A stretch of DNA of 64,000 bases from Rehaibacterium terrae (GTDB lineage Bacteria > Pseudomonadota > Gammaproteobacteria > Xanthomonadales > Xanthomonadaceae). The position numbers were made by a program, and so were the translations under genes. The notes under the pieces are model-generated. The model did no database searches. It saw nothing but the letters and a program-made list of their open reading frames with translations, and was not told the origin of the DNA. Below are positions 14,516 through 22,360 of the stretch, one piece after another. The DNA is taken from the NCBI RefSeq assembly GCF_014202935.1, contig NZ_JACHHX010000007.1, positions 1 through 64,000 of the forward strand, read 5' to 3'. The stretch's first letter is position 1. The number at the start of each line of letters is the position of its first letter.

Positions 14516-14728
14516 TCAATCGCAGCAGCGCCCCTGCCGCTGGACCGGCGGGCACGGCACCGTGCCGTACGAACAGAACACACAGCAGTCGCCCGGCTCG
14601 GGCCGCAGCAGGGCCTGGCAGGCCGGGCAATCGTAGAAGTACTGGCAGGCCGTGGTCGGCATGGTCTCGGTCACGCGGTGACCGCAGGCCGGACAGGTCA
14701 GCGTGCTTTGCAGTTGCAGCTCAATCAT
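14516..14728 (-). CDS. GDCCVxC-domain small cysteine-rich protein
   Basis: A 70-residue protein with nine cysteines: a TCPACGH and a DCPACQ pair, then GDCCVFCSYGTVPCPP and a terminal GRCCD. The GDCCVxC signature names a small family that I recall from mercury-resistance-type operons, where some members are selenoproteins; here the position is Cys. It overlaps the merP stop by 8 bases and is last in the merT-merP operon, so a role in binding or handing on Hg(II) or another soft metal in the cytoplasm is likely but unproven. No signal peptide is present. Confidence 0.8.
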   Translation of the reverse strand: MIELQLQSTLTCPACGHRVTETMPTTACQYFYDCPACQALLRPEPGDCCVFCSYGTVPCPPVQRQGRCCD

Positions 14729-15008
14729 CGCGTTCGCTCACGTGGGCAGGAAAGCCGGCATCGGTCACCGCCTTCACGATGGCGGGCACATCGGCCCGCT
14801 GCGGATCGAAGACGACGGCCACGGTTCCGGCGCGCGGATCGACGACGACCTCCCCCACGCCCTCCAGTCTCGCGAGCGCCTTCTGGATCGTGATGCCGCA
14901 CGCCGGGCAGGTCATGTTCCGCACCGACAGCACGACGCGTTCGGGCGTGGCGGCGGCGGCGAGCGCGAGCCATCCGGCCAGGACGGCAGCCACGACACGT
15001 TTGCGCAT
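14721..15008 (-). CDS. merP: Periplasmic mercury-binding protein MerP
   Basis: Captures Hg(II) in the periplasm and passes it to the inner-membrane transporter MerT. The 95 residues comprise a signal peptide (about 1-20, ending AAA) and one heavy-metal-associated (HMA) domain with the metal site NMTCPAC, replacing the usual GMTCxxC. A good GGAGG lies before ATG 15008. It is 10 bases after merT and overlaps the GDCCVxC gene, so the three form one unit under the mer operator. Confidence 0.9.
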   Translation of the reverse strand: MRKRVVAAVLAGWLALAAAATPERVVLSVRNMTCPACGITIQKALARLEGVGEVVVDPRAGTVAVVFDPQRADVPAIVKAVTDAGFPAHVSERDD

Positions 15009-15018
15009 GTTCCACCTC

Positions 15019-15375
15019 CTACAGCAGCCAACCCACGTAATACGGAAACAGCAACAGCAACGCGACCAGCGCCGCCGCCACCCACAGCCAACGCCGACGT
15101 CGGCGCAGTCGCCGCGGATCGACGCAGTCCACGTCGGCGCTGCAACGCGGCGCGCGTGCGTAAGCCACCCGGAACGCCCAGCCCAGGCACAGCAGCGCGA
15201 CGACGCTCAGCCCGGGGCGAAAAGTCTCGAACGCGGTGAGGCTGGCGACCCATGCGCCACCGATACCCAGCAGCACCAGCACGAGCGGTACGACACAGCA
15301 GACCGAGGCCGCGGCCGCGGCGAGGAGCGCCGCCCCCAGCGCCGGCCACTGTGAACGGGACGAAGTCGGCTTCAT
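15019..15375 (-). CDS. merT: Mercuric transport protein MerT
   Basis: Inner-membrane carrier moving Hg(II) into the cytoplasm. The 118-residue protein has three membrane helices. The vicinal cysteine pair SVCCVVPL sits in the first helix, and a second pair (CSADVDC) in the cytoplasmic loop; both are the MerT hallmarks. It is the first gene after the operator. The start codon has no Shine-Dalgarno, and the predicted -10 lies only about 7 bases upstream, suggesting a leaderless transcript. No merA reductase follows, so imported mercury would need another fate. Confidence 0.9.
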   Translation of the reverse strand: MKPTSSRSQWPALGAALLAAAAASVCCVVPLVLVLLGIGGAWVASLTAFETFRPGLSVVALLCLGWAFRVAYARAPRCSADVDCVDPRRLRRRRRWLWVAAALVALLLLFPYYVGWLL

Positions 15376-15381
15376 GGCGCT

Positions 15382-15413
15382 ATGCTGGACTCCGTACCCG
15401 AGTACGGAGTCAA
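15382..15413. promoter_or_regulatory. mer operator/promoter between merT and merR
   Basis: A perfect 10-bp dyad, GACTCCGTAC (15388-15397) and GTACGGAGTC (15402-15411), with a 4-base centre, is the classical MerR site. On the minus strand TTGACT (15413-15408) is the -35. It is followed after a stretched 19-21 base spacer by a weak -10 (CAGCAT at 15387-15382 for a 20-base spacer). Long spacers are what MerR untwists upon binding Hg(II). The right arm supplies GGAG, seven bases before the merR ATG. Confidence 0.88.
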
Positions 15414-15416
15414 GTC

Positions 15417-15881
15417 ATGGCCGCCAAGCCGTTCAGCATCGGCCGCCTGGCCGCGGCCGCAGGCGTGCATGTCGAGACCGTGCGCTACTACCAGCGCCGT
15501 GGTCTGCTCGACCAACCGGTCCGCCCGCTCGGCGGCATTCGCCGCTATGGTCCGGCGGATCTGGAGCGGCTGCGGTTCATCCGTCGCGCCAAGGCGATGG
15601 GGTTCAGCCTCGACGAGATCGCGGATCTGTCGAAGATCGCCGGGCATCGCGCCTGCGAGCGGACACGGCGCCTGACCGAACACAAGCTGGCACAGGTACG
15701 CGAGCGCCTGGAAGCGCTGCGCCGACTGGAAGCCGAGCTGGTGCGGCTGGTCGCGGCATGCTCCCGTCATGACGGCGACGAATGCCCGACGCTCGGCCTG
15801 CTCGCCGACGCCGTCGGCAAGCCCGCGGGCCGGCACCGTCGCCCGCCACGCCCGATCGACGCCTGCCCGGCCGGCCGGTAG
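15417..15881 (+). CDS. merR: MerR-family mercury-responsive regulator
   Basis: Transcription factor that represses, and with metal activates, the divergent merT promoter. In 154 residues it has the N-terminal winged helix (FSIGRLAAAAGVHVETVRYYQRRGLL, RRYGPADLERLRFI), a long dimerisation helix, and a C-terminal metal loop. Candidate mercury ligands are Cys in HRACERT, AACSRHDGDECP and a late DACP. The spacing A-C-S-R-H-x5-C fits a MerR metal loop. The start is ATG 15417, with GGAG inside the operator. Lead- or cadmium-type specificity is possible, but the merT-merP partners favour mercury. Confidence 0.88.
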   Translation: MAAKPFSIGRLAAAAGVHVETVRYYQRRGLLDQPVRPLGGIRRYGPADLERLRFIRRAKAMGFSLDEIADLSKIAGHRACERTRRLTEHKLAQVRERLEALRRLEAELVRLVAACSRHDGDECPTLGLLADAVGKPAGRHRRPPRPIDACPAGR

Positions 15882-15924: not shown

Positions 15925-16000
15925 TGGTGCCGGCACCCAGACTCGAACTGGGGACCTACCGCTTACAAGGCGGTTGCTCTACCGACTGAGCTATACCGGC
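15925..16000 (-). tRNA. tRNA-Thr (anticodon UGU)
   Basis: The minus strand folds into a complete 76-base cloverleaf. The acceptor stem is GCCGGTA/TGCCGGC, the D arm GCTC...GAGC, the anticodon stem ACCGC/GCGGT with loop CTTGTAA (anticodon TGT), and the T arm CCCAG-TTCGAGT-CTGGG. The 3' CCA is encoded. It lies alone between merR and the SPOR gene. Confidence 0.97.
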
Positions 16001-16709: not shown

Positions 16710-17444
16710 CTAGCCGGTCACGGCGGCACGGACGGCCAGCCCTTCCAGCACCAGATCGGGCGCGGCCTCGGCCGGCACGCGCAGCGCGGCCAGCAGCGAG
16801 TCGCCGCCGCCGCCGGCAATCAGCAGCGCCGGCGTCGTGCCCAGGCATTCGCTGGCGCGGGCGTGACTGCGTTCGATCAATCCGAGCGCGGCGCCGACCG
16901 TGCCGCCGGCCAGCGCGTCCTCGGTGCAGCGCGCGAAATCCACCCGCTCGCCGCCCGCCACATCCAGCGCCGGCACGCGCGAGGCCAACATTTCGCGCAT
17001 CAGCGCCGGCGACGGTGCGATCAGGCCGCCAAGGTGCTCGCCATCGGCCAGCAGGTCGACAGTGAGCGCGGTGCCGACGCCGACGATCAGCCACGGCCCG
17101 GGCCCGCGCCGGTGCGCGCCGAGCAGGGCCAGAAAGCGATCCACCCCCAGCCGCGCCGGCTCGGCGTAGGCGATGCGCAGACCGGCGAACTCGCTTTGCG
17201 TGTGCACGCGCTCGCAGGGCACCCCGTGGCGGGCGGCCAGGGCAGCGACGCGGGCGGCCAGGTCCTCGCCGGCGACGCTGGCGAGCAGCGCACGTTCGGC
17301 GCGCGGCAGCTCGGCCAGGCACGCATCGAGTGCGTGCTCGAAGCCGGGCTCGCCATGCGCCAGCGCGCCGTGCTCACGCAGGCCGCCGTCGTCGAAGCGC
17401 GCCCACTTCAGGCGGGTGTTGCCGAGGTCGAAGAGCCAGGTCAC
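16710..17444 (-). CDS. coaX: Type III pantothenate kinase
   Basis: Phosphorylates pantothenate, the first step of coenzyme A synthesis. At 244 residues the length is normal. It carries the N-terminal phosphate-binding DLGNTRLKWARF, the GVDRFLALLGA segment and GVGTALTVDLL, which define CoaX. The GTG at 17444 is chosen because WLFDLGNTR must lie at the N terminus. The bases just upstream are a heptamer repeat with no Shine-Dalgarno, and an in-frame ATG at 17522 would read through that repeat. Neighbour birA is the usual partner; fused birA-coaX proteins are known elsewhere. Confidence 0.93.
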   Translation of the reverse strand: MTWLFDLGNTRLKWARFDDGGLREHGALAHGEPGFEHALDACLAELPRAERALLASVAGEDLAARVAALAARHGVPCERVHTQSEFAGLRIAYAEPARLGVDRFLALLGAHRRGPGPWLIVGVGTALTVDLLADGEHLGGLIAPSPALMREMLASRVPALDVAGGERVDFARCTEDALAGGTVGAALGLIERSHARASECLGTTPALLIAGGGGDSLLAALRVPAEAAPDLVLEGLAVRAAVTG

Positions 17445-17490
17445 GGGAATCGGGAATCGGGAATCGGGAATCGGGAATCGGGAATCGGGA
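17445..17490. repeat. Heptanucleotide tandem repeat (GGGAATC) about 6.6 copies
   Basis: Six exact GGGAATC units plus GGGA abut the coaX GTG start codon on its upstream side. On the coaX strand it reads GATTCCC repeated. It occupies the place of the ribosome-binding site. Copy-number slippage here would alter initiation at an upstream start without affecting the GTG frame. Confidence 0.95.
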
Positions 17491-17549
17491 CGAGCTTCAT
17501 GGAGTGGATGCCGCGCACGCAAGCGCCCGACGCGAATGCCGGCCAGGCG

Positions 17550-18530
17550 CTACTCCGTGGCGCCCGCGCGCAGGCTGACTTCGCCGCTGTGATAGACGCG
17601 CTCGCCACCGTCGCCATGGCGCACGCGCAGGCCACCGTCGGCGGCGATGCCGAGCGCGACCCCCTCGCGGACGGCATCGCCGAGCAGCAGGCGTACTTCA
17701 CGGCCGGCGAAGGCGTCCAGCGCCGCCCAGCGCGGCAGGAACGGCGCCAGCCCGTCGCGGGCGAAATCGTCCAGCGCCGGCCACAGCGACGCCAGCAGCG
17801 CCGCCGCCAGCGCGTTGCGGTCGGGCACGGCCGCCGGCCGCAGCGCCGTCAGATCGGTCCAGGGCTGGTCGATGGCCTGTGCCGCGGCGCGCGGCATGCG
17901 CACATTCAGGCCGAGGCCGATCACCGCCTGGATCGGGCCGCCGACTTCGCCGCCCAGCTCGATCAGGATGCCGCCGAGCTTGCGTCCGTCGGCAAGCAGG
18001 TCGTTCGGCCATTTCAGCGCGACCGCCCCGTATCCGAGCCTGCGCAGCGCCTCGGCCACGGCGATGCCGACCACCAGGCTCAGCCCACCCAGCGCGGCCA
18101 CGCCGCCATCGAAACGGCGATGCAGCGAGAGGTAGAGGTTTGCCGCCAGCGGCGAAGCCCAATGGCGTCCGCGCCGGCCGCGACCGCCACGCTGGCGCTC
18201 GGCGAACAGCGCCAGGCCATCGGGGCAGTCCGCGCCGCGACGGATCAGCTCGGCGTTGGTGGAGTCGATCTCCCACACCACCTCCGGCACCGGCCAACGT
18301 GCCCGCAGCGATGGCGGCAGCAGCGCGGCAATGCGACCGGCGTCGAGCAAGGTCACCGGCGCGGCCAGCGCGTAGCCGCGCCCGGTCCGGGCCTCGATCT
18401 CGACGCCGTCGGCACGCAGGGCCTCGATGCGCTTCCACACCGCCGCGCGGGTGAGGCCCAGCTCCTTCGCCAGCGCCGCGCCCGAGCACGGCCCCTGCGC
18501 GAGTCGCGCGAGCAGATCGCGATCGCTCAC
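17550..18530 (-). CDS. birA: Biotin-protein ligase BirA (bifunctional)
   Basis: Activates biotin with ATP and attaches it to the biotin carrier protein of acetyl-CoA carboxylase. The 326 residues include an N-terminal winged helix (about 1-60; GAALAKELGLTRAAVWKRIEAL), so it may also act as the biotin-operon repressor. The catalytic domain follows, with WEIDSTNAEL, the biotinyl-AMP loop RQRGGRGRRGRHW, KWPNDLL and GGILIEL. The C-terminal SH3-like cap is present. The GTG start overlaps the plsY stop (GTGA). No bio genes are in the window. Confidence 0.93.
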   Translation of the reverse strand: MSDRDLLARLAQGPCSGAALAKELGLTRAAVWKRIEALRADGVEIEARTGRGYALAAPVTLLDAGRIAALLPPSLRARWPVPEVVWEIDSTNAELIRRGADCPDGLALFAERQRGGRGRRGRHWASPLAANLYLSLHRRFDGGVAALGGLSLVVGIAVAEALRRLGYGAVALKWPNDLLADGRKLGGILIELGGEVGGPIQAVIGLGLNVRMPRAAAQAIDQPWTDLTALRPAAVPDRNALAAALLASLWPALDDFARDGLAPFLPRWAALDAFAGREVRLLLGDAVREGVALGIAADGGLRVRHGDGGERVYHSGEVSLRAGATE

Positions 18531-19150
18531 GCCGGGCGTTTCCCGAACAGCCGCGCCAGCACCCGCGCGCGCTCGAAGCGGTGCTCGTTGCCGGCGCGCA
18601 GCCGCGCCAGGTTGGCACGGTGGGTGAAGGCGATGAACGCCGCCACCGCCAGCGCGAAGGCCAGCCGTGTGCCGTCCGCGCCGATGGCGAAGGCGAACGC
18701 GGGCAGTGCGGCCGCCGCCAGGATCGTCGCCAGGCCGACATAGCCGGTGATGGTCAGGCACAGCAGCCACACCGCCAGCAGCGGCAGCACAGCCAGCGGC
18801 CACAGCACCAGCAGGCCACCGACCAGGGTGCCGGCGCCCTTGCCGCCGCGGAACCCGTGGAAGACCGGCCACACATGACCGGCGACCGCGGCGAGCACGG
18901 CCAGATACGCCACGTCGGCATCGCCCGCGAAGCGCCGCGCCAGCCAGGCGGCGAGCACGCCCTTGCCGACGTCGACCAGCACCGTACCCAGCGCGAACCG
19001 CCAGCCCTGCGTGCGCAAGGCATTGGTGCCGCCGGCATTGCCGCTGCCCTGGGTGCGGATGTCGACGCCGCGCAGGCGGCCGAGCAGCAGGCTGCCCGAC
19101 AGCGAGCCGAGCAGGTAGGCGGCGAGGATCAAAACCAGTGCGGTGATCAT
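18527..19150 (-). CDS. plsY: Acyl-phosphate:glycerol-3-phosphate acyltransferase PlsY
   Basis: Transfers an acyl group from acyl-phosphate to the sn-1 position of glycerol-3-phosphate, the entry step to phospholipids. The 207-residue integral membrane protein has about five helices and the family loops GSGNAGGTNALR, GHVWPVFHGFRGGKGAGT and a late FTHRANLARL. Its stop overlaps birA. A FakA-FakB fusion gene lies 75 bases upstream on the same strand; fatty-acid kinase makes the acyl-phosphate substrate of PlsY, so the pairing is meaningful. Confidence 0.95.
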   Translation of the reverse strand: MITALVLILAAYLLGSLSGSLLLGRLRGVDIRTQGSGNAGGTNALRTQGWRFALGTVLVDVGKGVLAAWLARRFAGDADVAYLAVLAAVAGHVWPVFHGFRGGKGAGTLVGGLLVLWPLAVLPLLAVWLLCLTITGYVGLATILAAAALPAFAFAIGADGTRLAFALAVAAFIAFTHRANLARLRAGNEHRFERARVLARLFGKRPA

Positions 19151-19225
19151 CCCGCGATTATGGGGCGCGTGGGCGACGGCGCACCACAGCAGTCACGCCA
19201 CGGCTGCACCGTCGATGCTGCCAGG

Positions 19226-21058
19226 TCAATGCCCCGCCACCGGCTGCACCGACACCACCAGCGCGCCCGGGCCGGCATGGGCGCCGACGGCGGGGCCGGT
19301 CTCGACCAGCCAGCCCTCGGCGCAGTCGAGCCGCGCGCGCAATGCGTCGAGCAGCGCCTGGCCGTCGGCGGCACTGTCGCAGTGGCCGACGATCAGCCGG
19401 CAGCGCGTCCGCGGCAGCCGCCTGGCCAGATAGTCGGCGAAGCGCTCGGGCACGCGATGGCGGCCGAACAGCGCGCCGGCCACGCCGAGCCGGCCGTCCG
19501 GCCTCACCTTGGCCACCGGCGTCATGCCCAGCCCCTCGATCAACGGCTTGGCCCAGCGCGGCACGCGGCCGCCACGCACGCCATGGCTGAGGTCGCGGGC
19601 GATGGCCCAGGTGAGCGTCAACGGACGCAGGCGTTCGAGCTCGGCGACGATCTCGTCGGAGGCGGCGCCCTCCTGCGCCAGCTCGGCGGCGCGGATCGCC
19701 AGCAGCGCCTGGCCGCCGGCGGCGTTGGCACTGTCGAAGACATGGCTGCGCGCGGCATCGACGCGTGCGGCGGCGGTTTCGGCCGACTGCAAGGTGCCCG
19801 AGACCGCGCGCGACAGGCCGACGTAAACCAGCGCCGGGTGGTGCGACAGCAGGAACTCGAACTGGCGACGGAAATCGCCCGGCGGTGGCTGGCTGGTGCG
19901 CGGCAGCACCGACTCGCCGCGCAGTTTCGCGTAGAACTCGCCCGGGCTGAGGCTGACCTTGTCGAGGTAGTCGCGTTCGCCGAAATTGATCCGCAACGGC
20001 ACGACGTGGATGTGCAGGCGCTCGGCCAGCCCGGCCGGCAGATCGGCGGAGCTGTCGGTGACGATCGCCACGCCCTCGCCCTCGGACGCGACGGCGCGCT
20101 GCTGCGCCAGCATGTCGTCGGCCTTGCAGCCTTCGACGCGGCCGAAGCGCGCGCAGACCTCGAACAGCCGCTGCGGGTCGGCCACGTGCGCGTGCAGGCG
20201 CACGCGCGCCGCCGAACCGGCCACCACCACGCAGCTCGCGCCGAGCGCGAGCACCTCGGCACGCAGCCCCTCGCGGTCGATCGGCGCGGCGACCGCATCG
20301 CCCAGCAGCAGGCACTCGCTGCACCAGCGATGGTCGGGGTCCCCGCAGGCCTCGCGATGCGCGCTCTGAGCCTCGAAGTCGGCCGCGATGTCGGCCTCGG
20401 CGTCGGCCGCCGCCACCCGCCGCGAGGCGATGAACTCGGCGATGCCTTCGAGCAGATCGACGAAGCCCTGCGCGCCGGCATCGACCACACCGGCCTTCTG
20501 CAACACGGCCAGCTGCTTCGGCGTGTTCGCCAGCGCCGTGCGGGTCCGCTCCAGTGCGCCACCGAACCACTCGCGCAGATCGTCGTGGGTATGCTCCAGC
20601 GCCTCGGCGAAGGCGTGGATGACACTCAGGATGGTGCCCTCGCGCGGCTCGCTCAGTGCCGCGCGGGCCGAGTGCGCGCCCTTGCGCACCGCCAGGCTGA
20701 GCGTGCGGGTGTCCAGTGCGACCGTGTCGCGGCCGACCGCCTCGGCGACCCCCTGCAGGAACTGCGCGAGGATGGCGCCGGAATTGCCGCGCGCGCCGTC
20801 GATGGCGTCCTCGCCGACCCGCCCGAGCAGCTCGCCCGGCGAGCCGGCAGGCCGGCTGAGCGCGCCGCCGAGCACGTGGCCGAGGGTGAAGGCGAGGTTG
20901 CTGCCGGTGTCGCCATCGGGCACCGGAAAGACGTTGATCCGGTTCAGCGTCTCGCGGTGGGCGATCACCTTGCGCGCGCCGGCGATCAGGGCCCGGCGCA
21001 AGGCCGGGGCGGAAATGCGCCGCGGCAGCGGCCGGGCGGAATCGAGCTGGGCGTTCAT
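19226..21058 (-). CDS. Fused fatty-acid kinase: FakA (DhaL + middle) with C-terminal FakB/DegV
   Basis: Predicted to phosphorylate fatty acids to acyl-phosphate in a single 610-residue chain. The N-terminal DhaL/DAK2 domain (about 20-205) has the Mg-ATP motif NVFPVPDGDTG (Asp48, Asp50). The middle domain keeps RWCSEC (Cys246) and LHAHV (His289, His291), matching the Cys/His/His set reported for Staphylococcus FakA. From about residue 328 a DegV/FakB lipid-binding domain begins (VTDSSADLP, TSQPPPGDF, SGT, GRVPRWAK). Gram-positives encode FakA and FakB separately. ATG 21058 is preferred; a longer reading to 21148 exists. It precedes plsY. Function is inferred from the family, and DegV ligands other than fatty acids are possible. 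Confidence 0.85.
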   Translation of the reverse strand: MNAQLDSARPLPRRISAPALRRALIAGARKVIAHRETLNRINVFPVPDGDTGSNLAFTLGHVLGGALSRPAGSPGELLGRVGEDAIDGARGNSGAILAQFLQGVAEAVGRDTVALDTRTLSLAVRKGAHSARAALSEPREGTILSVIHAFAEALEHTHDDLREWFGGALERTRTALANTPKQLAVLQKAGVVDAGAQGFVDLLEGIAEFIASRRVAAADAEADIAADFEAQSAHREACGDPDHRWCSECLLLGDAVAAPIDREGLRAEVLALGASCVVVAGSAARVRLHAHVADPQRLFEVCARFGRVEGCKADDMLAQQRAVASEGEGVAIVTDSSADLPAGLAERLHIHVVPLRINFGERDYLDKVSLSPGEFYAKLRGESVLPRTSQPPPGDFRRQFEFLLSHHPALVYVGLSRAVSGTLQSAETAAARVDAARSHVFDSANAAGGQALLAIRAAELAQEGAASDEIVAELERLRPLTLTWAIARDLSHGVRGGRVPRWAKPLIEGLGMTPVAKVRPDGRLGVAGALFGRHRVPERFADYLARRLPRTRCRLIVGHCDSAADGQALLDALRARLDCAEGWLVETGPAVGAHAGPGALVVSVQPVAGH

Positions 21059-21255
21059 GCCCGCCGGAGTCTGCACCAGTCGATCCGATCCGCCATGCTG
21101 CAGCGCAGCGTGAGCGGCCCGCGCCATGACGTGCGCCGGCTGCGGCAAACGGTGACGGGGCCGGCACCCCGGCCGGGGAATGCGGCTAGAATGGGCATTG
21201 CCCGACGCCGGCCCTGCCCGACGCCCTGCCGACCGGTGTTCCCGAGGATCGCGCC

Positions 21256-21534
21256 ATGAGACTGCTGCTGCCGTTCGCCCTGCTGCTGTGCTTCCTCCCC
21301 AGCGCCCACGCGCTGGAGAACGCGCGCCTGTCCCCGGACGGCGCCAGCGAGGGCTGCCCGGTCACCCAGGGCGAGGGCCAGAACGCCAATCCGGCGCCGG
21401 CCGCCCGCGAAGACGCCACCGACGCCGCCGCGACCGCGCCGGCGCGTGGCCCGGGCGATCCGATGCAGCCCCCGTCCAAGCCGCAACGCAGCCCGGCCCG
21501 CTGGCAGAGCCTGCTGCCGGGAATGTTCCGCTGA
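21256..21534 (+). CDS. Small secreted protein, function unknown
   Basis: A 92-residue product with a clear signal peptide (about 1-19; LLLPFALLLCFLPSAHA). The mature part is Ala/Pro-rich and low in complexity, with one Cys (EGCPVTQGEGQNANP) and a conserved-looking tail, RSPARWQSLLPGMFR. GAGGATC precedes ATG 21256. From memory, similar short proteins ending in RWxSLLPGMFR occur in other Xanthomonadales. It sits 49 bases before the MtfA gene. No function can be assigned. Confidence 0.72.
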   Translation: MRLLLPFALLLCFLPSAHALENARLSPDGASEGCPVTQGEGQNANPAPAAREDATDAAATAPARGPGDPMQPPSKPQRSPARWQSLLPGMFR

Positions 21535-21583
21535 ACACCCGCCGGCGCTTGCCTCGCCGACGCGACGCCCGCACCCTGCGGGC

Positions 21584-22360
21584 ATGATCTCCCTGCTGCG
21601 ACGCCTGCGCCGCGCCTTCGCGCCCGAGCCCGTCCATCTGGACGACGCCGAGTGGTCGCGCGTGGTCGCGCGCGTGCCCTGGGCGGCCGCGCTCGACCCG
21701 GCGCGGCGCGAGCGCCTGCGCGCGCTGGTCGGCCGCTTCCTGCGCGACAAGGCCATCGTCCCGGCCGGTGACTTCGCCATCGACGCCCACCAGGCCCACG
21801 TGCTGGCGGCGCTGTGCTGCCTGCCGGTGCTCGAATTCGGCTACGGCGGCCTGGCCGGCTGGTCCGAGCTGATCCTCTACCCGGACACCTTCCGTGCCCA
21901 CCGCAGCCATTTCGACGAACACACCGGCGTGCTCACCGAGGGCGAGGAGGAGCTGGCCGGCGAAGCCTGGGACCGTGGCCCGGTGATCCTGTCCTGGGGC
22001 GACATCGAGGCCGACCTGGCCGAGCCGGACGCCGGCTTCAACGTCGCCGCCCACGAGATCGCCCACAAGCTGGACGTGCTCGACGGCGTGATGGACGGCA
22101 CCCCGCCGCTGCCGCGCGACTGGCAGCGCAAGTGGGCGCGCGACTTCCAGGCCGCCTACGACGCGCTGTGCGAGGACCTCGACCACGAGCGCGAACCGGC
22201 CATCGACGCCTACGCCGCCAGCGCGCCGGAAGAGTTCTTCGCGGTCTGCACCGAATACCACTTCTCCGCGCCGCAGGTGCTGGCCGACGCCATGCCGGCC
22301 GTCGCGGCGCACCTGGAGCGCTTCTACGGCCCCTCGCCGTTCCGTTCGCGCGCGGCCTGA
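21584..22360 (+). CDS. mtfA: MtfA-type zinc metallopeptidase (M90)
   Basis: Homologue of E. coli MtfA, an aminopeptidase reported to bind the glucose regulator Mlc. In 258 residues the zinc site is AAHEIAHKLD (HExxH at about 156-160), with the downstream glutamate in YAASAPEEFFAVCTEYHF. GWSELILYPDTF and the SWGDIEADL region are family-conserved. Length is normal. Mlc itself is not seen here, so the physiological target in this lineage is unknown. The gene ends just before a long inverted repeat. Confidence 0.88.
   Translation: MISLLRRLRRAFAPEPVHLDDAEWSRVVARVPWAAALDPARRERLRALVGRFLRDKAIVPAGDFAIDAHQAHVLAALCCLPVLEFGYGGLAGWSELILYPDTFRAHRSHFDEHTGVLTEGEEELAGEAWDRGPVILSWGDIEADLAEPDAGFNVAAHEIAHKLDVLDGVMDGTPPLPRDWQRKWARDFQAAYDALCEDLDHEREPAIDAYAASAPEEFFAVCTEYHFSAPQVLADAMPAVAAHLERFYGPSPFRSRAA

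Follow-up and report, generated by a model that had tools for sequence, protein, structure and literature searches.

A putative single-chain fatty-acid kinase encoded upstream of plsY in Rehaibacterium terrae

The first 64,000 nucleotides of Rehaibacterium terrae contig NZ_JACHHX010000007.1 (assembly GCF_014202935.1), which we call the window, contain a minus-strand gene whose predicted product joins counterparts of the fatty-acid kinase FakA and its fatty-acid-binding partner FakB in one chain (Table 1). By Pfam searches we found three domains in it, in the order Dak2, FakA-like_M and DegV. The next gene downstream on the same strand is plsY, after a gap of exactly 75 nucleotides (19151-19225); its product reaches 152.9 bits against the equivalog model TIGR00023, for which the cut-off is 137.2. 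Both the FakA-FakB fusion and its position 75 bases from plsY had been proposed in an original prediction made from the sequence alone, and both are borne out. The fusion is a real gene rather than a product of chance or of an assembly error: among 41 relatives sampled, matches to it were found in 26, running along the protein in 25, at 43-73% identity. An alternative TTG start at 21148 would add 30 residues that are poorly conserved. A scan of the locus for promoters and terminators found none, the GC-rich DNA making such a scan uninformative. In one relative (G011) the fusion is broken in frame, which we considered as a sign of a pseudogene and rejected, because the rpoB of that assembly is broken too.

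Table 1. Positions of the fused gene, its domains and the genes downstream of it, in window coordinates.
Feature	Position	Strand	Details
Single-chain fatty-acid kinase (predicted; FakA_N - FakA middle - FakB)	19226..21058	-	610 aa (610 codons plus stop), ATG start; open reading frame list, Pfam, alignments, AlphaFold2, Foldseek
DhaL/Dak2 (FakA_N-like) ATP-binding kinase domain	20435..20926	-	Residues 45-208; PF02734, 9.5e-33; Asp48/Asp50, GARGNSG loop
FakA middle domain	20096..20329	-	Residues 244-321; PF21645, 1.5e-10; Cys246, His289, His291
DegV/FakB fatty-acid-binding domain (predicted)	19244..20071	-	Residues 330-605; PF02645, 6.4e-60
Marks of the DegV/FakB domain			Arg498 (= FakB1 Arg173), Ser420, TSQP 388-391, His594; Phe531 at the FakB1 Arg205 position
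plsY, acyl-phosphate:glycerol-3-phosphate acyltransferase	18527..19150	-	TIGR00023 and PF02660 above cut-off
birA-like biotin-protein ligase	17550..18530	-	Pfam; GTG start overlaps plsY stop (GTGA)
coaX, type III pantothenate kinase	16710..17522	-	Pfam; true start probably within the listed TTG open reading frame

The protein falls short of both models of canonical FakA (132.7 of 975 bits for NF038248; 241.2 of 396.1 for TIGR03599), and its alignment to TIGR03599 ends at model position 302 of 530. Searched with FakA-like_C (PF13684) from Pfam, the window protein gives no match at a threshold as loose as E = 10. The DegV domain is above the curated cut-offs of PF02645 (203 bits, cut-off 27) and TIGR00762 (224.5 bits, cut-off 99.7) and below that of the FakB1 equivalog NF038249 (109.1 of 350 bits); by these scores it is a distant FakB and not an orthologue of FakB1. 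We regard the protein as a putative kinase of FakA/FakB type, contained in one chain.

The C-terminal domain of Staphylococcus aureus FakA (FakA_C), which docks FakB, is structurally related to FakB but is missing three elements from the roof of the fatty-acid tunnel; FakA_NL, which has no FakA_C, retains activity, its apparent Michaelis constant (Km) for FakB1 being about tenfold higher (0.99 versus 0.09 µM; PMC9136124). Because FakA_C is itself FakB-like in fold, a DegV fold at the C-terminus might be no more than a FakA_C. In phmmer alignments to the sequences of solved structures (3fys, 2dt8, 6nyu, 5woo), 270 residues of the fused domain align nearly without gaps to Bacillus subtilis DegV, Thermus thermophilus DegV and S. 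aureus FakB1, and there is a counterpart to the stretch 27-62 of FakB1, which forms part of the tunnel roof and which FakA_C does not have. Similarly, hhalign relates the domain to separate FakBs with E = 1e-62 and finds no significant relation to the FakA_C of separate FakAs (probability about 1%). Weak FakA-like_C matches occur in 24 of 79 fusions (the window protein and 78 relatives that are 37-69% identical to it) and are mostly weaker still in separate FakBs, as would fit if FakA_C and FakB share a distant ancestor. By these comparisons the C-terminal domain is of FakB type and is not a FakA_C. The original prediction had the separate FakA C-terminal domain absent and replaced by a FakB domain; Pfam and hhalign agree with this, with the qualification that canonical FakA_C, in the same position, is itself a FakB fold without the tunnel (PMC9136124). 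An origin of the fusion from a FakA_C that regained its tunnel was rejected, as hhalign and the tree described below place the domain with FakB, though long branches blur the deep history.

Six residues (Asp48, Cys246, His289, His291, Ser420 and Arg498) are invariant in the 79 fusions, Asp50 and His594 are each found in 78 (the odd sequence at Asp50 has an X), and Thr388 in 76. The two aspartates and the Cys-His-His set had been named in the original prediction with the correct numbers, and all five are conserved in 78-79 of 79. The Thr of the TSQP motif, the Ser and the His of the FakB domain are presumably residues of the carboxylate site. An AlphaFold2 model of the fusion has a mean local confidence (pLDDT) of 92.9 and a predicted template-modelling score (pTM) of 0.91, and in Foldseek it matches S. 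aureus FakA_N with template-modelling (TM) scores of 0.92-0.93 (0.93 to 8vit) and FakB/DegV structures, several of them loaded with fatty acid, with 0.78-0.88 (0.82-0.83 to palmitate-bound FakB1, 5uto). A lipid tunnel may be present: the region that would form it appears in the alignments, and the fold is like that of fatty-acid-loaded structures.

In S. aureus the catalytic residues of the FakA middle domain are Cys240, His282 and His284, and FakB1 Arg173, the equivalent of Arg498 here, is essential for kinase activity; FakB1 Arg205 contacts Glu548 of FakA_C in docking and is also the centre of a membrane-binding wedge (PMC9136124). Arg or Lys occupies the Arg205 position in 19 of 20 FakBs that are either separate or fused in reverse order, in a small comparison set of which ten members are close relatives, whereas the fusions have mostly Phe or Leu, with Arg in only 3 of 79. 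Loss of the docking arginine fits the fusion arrangement. Because Arg205 also centres the membrane-binding wedge, contact with the membrane may change too; basic residues neighbouring this position are retained in the fusions.

PlsY takes acyl-phosphate as its acyl donor. By TIGR00182, which detects PlsX in E. coli, B. subtilis and six further control genomes, we found no PlsX in the R. terrae genome (99.97% complete); the genome also has no second DegV protein, and it has PlsB. The 41 relatives include 25 genera of R. terrae's own family, none of which has PlsX (0/25) and 24 of which have PlsB. Of these genera, 12 have the fusion together with PlsY and 13 have neither. Across all 34 PlsX-less relatives the two occur together in 20, neither occurs in 13, PlsY alone in one and the fusion alone in none. 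Six named genomes, those of Arenimonas oryziterrae, Dyella lutea, a Pseudoxanthomonas sp., Lysobacter antibioticus, Tahibacter harae and Dokdonella immobilis, have fusion and PlsY without PlsX. On an rpoB tree this joint state requires at least 6 gains or losses, 4 of them on well-supported branches. In a wider draw from the family, PlsY is present in 131 of 397 genomes (24 of 54 genera). A neighbourhood survey, suggested as a check with the original prediction, showed the fusion upstream of plsY on the same strand in 30 of 30 fetched family loci, which were ranked by PlsY score only, with no reference to the fusion. Xanthomonadales have been named as the only bacteria known with PlsB/C alone (PMC11633183); in the sampled family, the 13 members lacking both genes agree with this, and the 12 with both do not.

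A class-wide draw found the fusion in 16 of 369 gammaproteobacterial genomes (three cut by contig ends), and a draw of 399 Pseudomonadota gave full-length fusions in two only, both from R. terrae's own order. In the phylum of a Candidatus Neomarinimicrobiota record, about 80 of 149 genomes have a full-length fusion, with plsY directly downstream in 20 of 20 fetched loci. A phylogeny, the other check suggested at the outset, placed 46 of 49 fusions, gammaproteobacterial and Neomarinimicrobiota together, in one supported clade of the DegV-domain tree; a second tree, which also took in FakA_C, resolves the branching among fusions and FakBs less well.

Several other arrangements were seen in these searches. 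Three divergent gammaproteobacterial fusions (L120, L121, L122) lie outside the clade, their DegV domain grouping with separate FakBs, and give FakA-like_C matches above cut-off; they are possibly independent fusions or old intermediates. Neomarinimicrobiota loci L220-L227 and L232 have a two-gene fakB-fakA or fakA-fakB pair with a divergent plsY directly after it, and some of these genomes also have the fused version. Two further genomes of this phylum encode, besides a normal fusion, a reversed 787-aa protein with DegV before Dak2 (L229:1390-3750(+) and L230:1217-3577(-)), so that FakB and FakA appear, from domain order, to have been joined both ways. The gammaproteobacterium G108 has a canonical FakA including FakA_C, with a separate FakB adjoining (L228:1714-4260(-)); a search of its genome, which is 88% complete, gave no PlsX. 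At L063-L109 (Woeseiaceae, Steroidobacter and kin) the neighbours of the fusion are in many cases dinB-, exeA- and gspB-like genes, and not plsY.

Since PlsX has been lost in the family, the fusion is its only recognisable source of acyl-phosphate, and with no other Fak-type enzyme present the most economical reading is that free fatty acids are turned by the fusion into the acyl-phosphate on which PlsY draws. The original prediction had proposed that the fusion supplies PlsY, and this is strengthened by the absence of PlsX from the family, the joint gain and loss, and the recurrence of the fak-plsY order in a second phylum. Very probably, then, the protein is a complete one-chain fatty-acid kinase that serves as PlsY's acyl-phosphate source, in a salvage route beside PlsB. 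The chemistry, substrate, delivery to PlsY and physiological role are what we infer, as follows. The FakB domain would take a free fatty acid, exogenous or from lipid turnover, out of the membrane; the DhaL and Cys-His-His middle domains would phosphorylate its carboxylate with ATP; and the acyl-phosphate would pass to PlsY, encoded by the next gene of the operon, for acylation of glycerol-3-phosphate. A covalent tether would take the place of a diffusing FakB that docks on FakA_C. PlsY would be the salvage acyltransferase, with PlsB handling newly made acyl-acyl carrier protein (acyl-ACP). As the original prediction also suggested, such a route might be independent of acyl-coenzyme A, although PlsB is present as well, and fusion might set FakA and FakB at 1:1; since the middle domain of S. 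aureus FakA forms dimers, the assembly is probably a 2:2 dimer.

Some observations weigh against this proposal. One PlsX-less relative (G029; 94% complete and fragmented, with 210 contigs) has PlsY and lacks the fusion. Less weight can be put on joint loss than appears at first, because the two genes are usually adjacent and one deletion could remove both; in G022, G033 and G035, fusion and plsY are both kept, on different contigs. In Woeseiaceae and Steroidobacter the fusion lies beside exeA/gspB-like genes and not plsY, and PlsX is found in many fusion genomes outside this order group, being mostly present in those two taxa. Dependence of PlsY on the fusion would therefore be a feature of the PlsX-less Lysobacterales.

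Among other explanations, the one that survives best, though we think it unlikely, is that the protein is a fatty-acid kinase whose acyl-phosphate is mainly a signal, for example to lipopolysaccharide synthesis, with PlsY as an acyl-phosphate sink: regulation of LpxC by acyl-phosphate has been proposed for E. coli (PMC13060810), but a link to PlsY would be expected just as much if the kinase simply served lipid synthesis. Somewhat less probable again is a substrate other than a long-chain fatty acid, such as another carboxylate or a polar lipid, with proximity to plsY reflecting shared regulation or chance. Sequence cannot reveal the substrate, DhaL-type domains also phosphorylate dihydroxyacetone, and the plsY neighbourhood is not universal; this explanation sits badly, however, with the way in which PlsX-less genomes have or lack the fusion and PlsY as a pair, which holds also where the two genes lie apart, with the fak-plsY order in a second phylum, two-gene fakA/fakB versions included, and with a fold that closely matches FakBs with palmitate or oleate bound. 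Very unlikely is a DegV domain that only docks or regulates while a separate FakB carries the fatty acid, since, for all that canonical FakA_C has the same position and a FakB fold (PMC9136124) and some fusions match FakA-like_C weakly, the genome has no second DegV protein, the Arg173, Ser95, TSQP and His equivalents and the tunnel-roof stretch are kept in a near-gapless alignment to FakB1, and the arginine for docking on FakA_C is lost.

More tentatively, and against our own leaning, PlsY of the PlsX-less Lysobacterales could be a dedicated salvage enzyme wholly dependent on the fusion, whose tethered FakB domain at the membrane would hand acyl-phosphate directly to it. The FakB domain would then no longer be a free shuttling carrier, hydrophobic residues having replaced its docking arginine, and new synthesis through PlsB would run in parallel with salvage through Fak-PlsY.

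Downstream of plsY and the birA-like gene lies coaX, an order common to many Lysobacterales, and then a SPOR-domain gene. On its other side the fusion is adjoined by an opposite-strand gene for a peptidase M90 (MtfA-like; 21446-22360(+)), apparently the same gene that adjoins it in several relatives. The window also contains genes for a MerP-like protein (HMA domain), MerT and a divergent MerR (14721-15881), and its only tRNA gene is a tRNA-Thr (TGT anticodon; 15925-16000(-)).

Gram-negative bacteria are said to activate fatty acids as acyl-thioesters, exogenous ones going via FadD/PlsB, and Firmicutes via FakA/FakB (PMC12594616, PMC11633183). We found no fused FakA-FakB described in openly accessible papers, subscription papers being outside the search. 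A large part of the Xanthomonadales has PlsY and a predicted one-protein fatty-acid kinase but lacks PlsX. This suggests that gram-negative membrane lipids have a second salvage route, separable and directly testable, and bears on whether these bacteria can bypass inhibitors of fatty-acid synthesis. How FakA meets FakB-bound fatty acid is the subject of two conflicting models (PMC11617999), for which a one-chain kinase with its own FakB domain is a practical subject.

The fusion resembles the FakA + FakB system of S. aureus, B. subtilis and Streptococcus suis in its DhaL domain, its Cys-His-His middle domain, its FakB domain with TSQP, Ser, Arg173 and His, and, by prediction, the use of its product by PlsY. 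It differs in being one chain, without FakA_C and with a hydrophobic residue for the docking Arg205; and whereas Firmicutes have several FakBs, there is one FakB per kinase here; the host genomes are gram-negative and contain PlsB, and those of R. terrae's own family lack PlsX. Like FakA_C (PF13684), the fused domain follows the middle domain and has a FakB/EDD-related fold, but it is of FakB type, with the tunnel-forming elements and the Arg173 equivalent. Dihydroxyacetone kinase DhaKLM has the DhaL domain in common with the fusion, which lacks DhaK and DhaM and scores only 20 bits against TIGR02365 (cut-off 138). In PlsX/PlsY, as in the proposed route, acyl-phosphate passes to PlsY; its source there is acyl-ACP and phosphate, whereas the fusion would use free fatty acid and ATP, without PlsX. 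Finally, the usual gram-negative route by FadD/AasS and PlsB likewise activates free fatty acids for phospholipid, through an acyl-thioester and PlsB, where the fusion would act through acyl-phosphate and PlsY.

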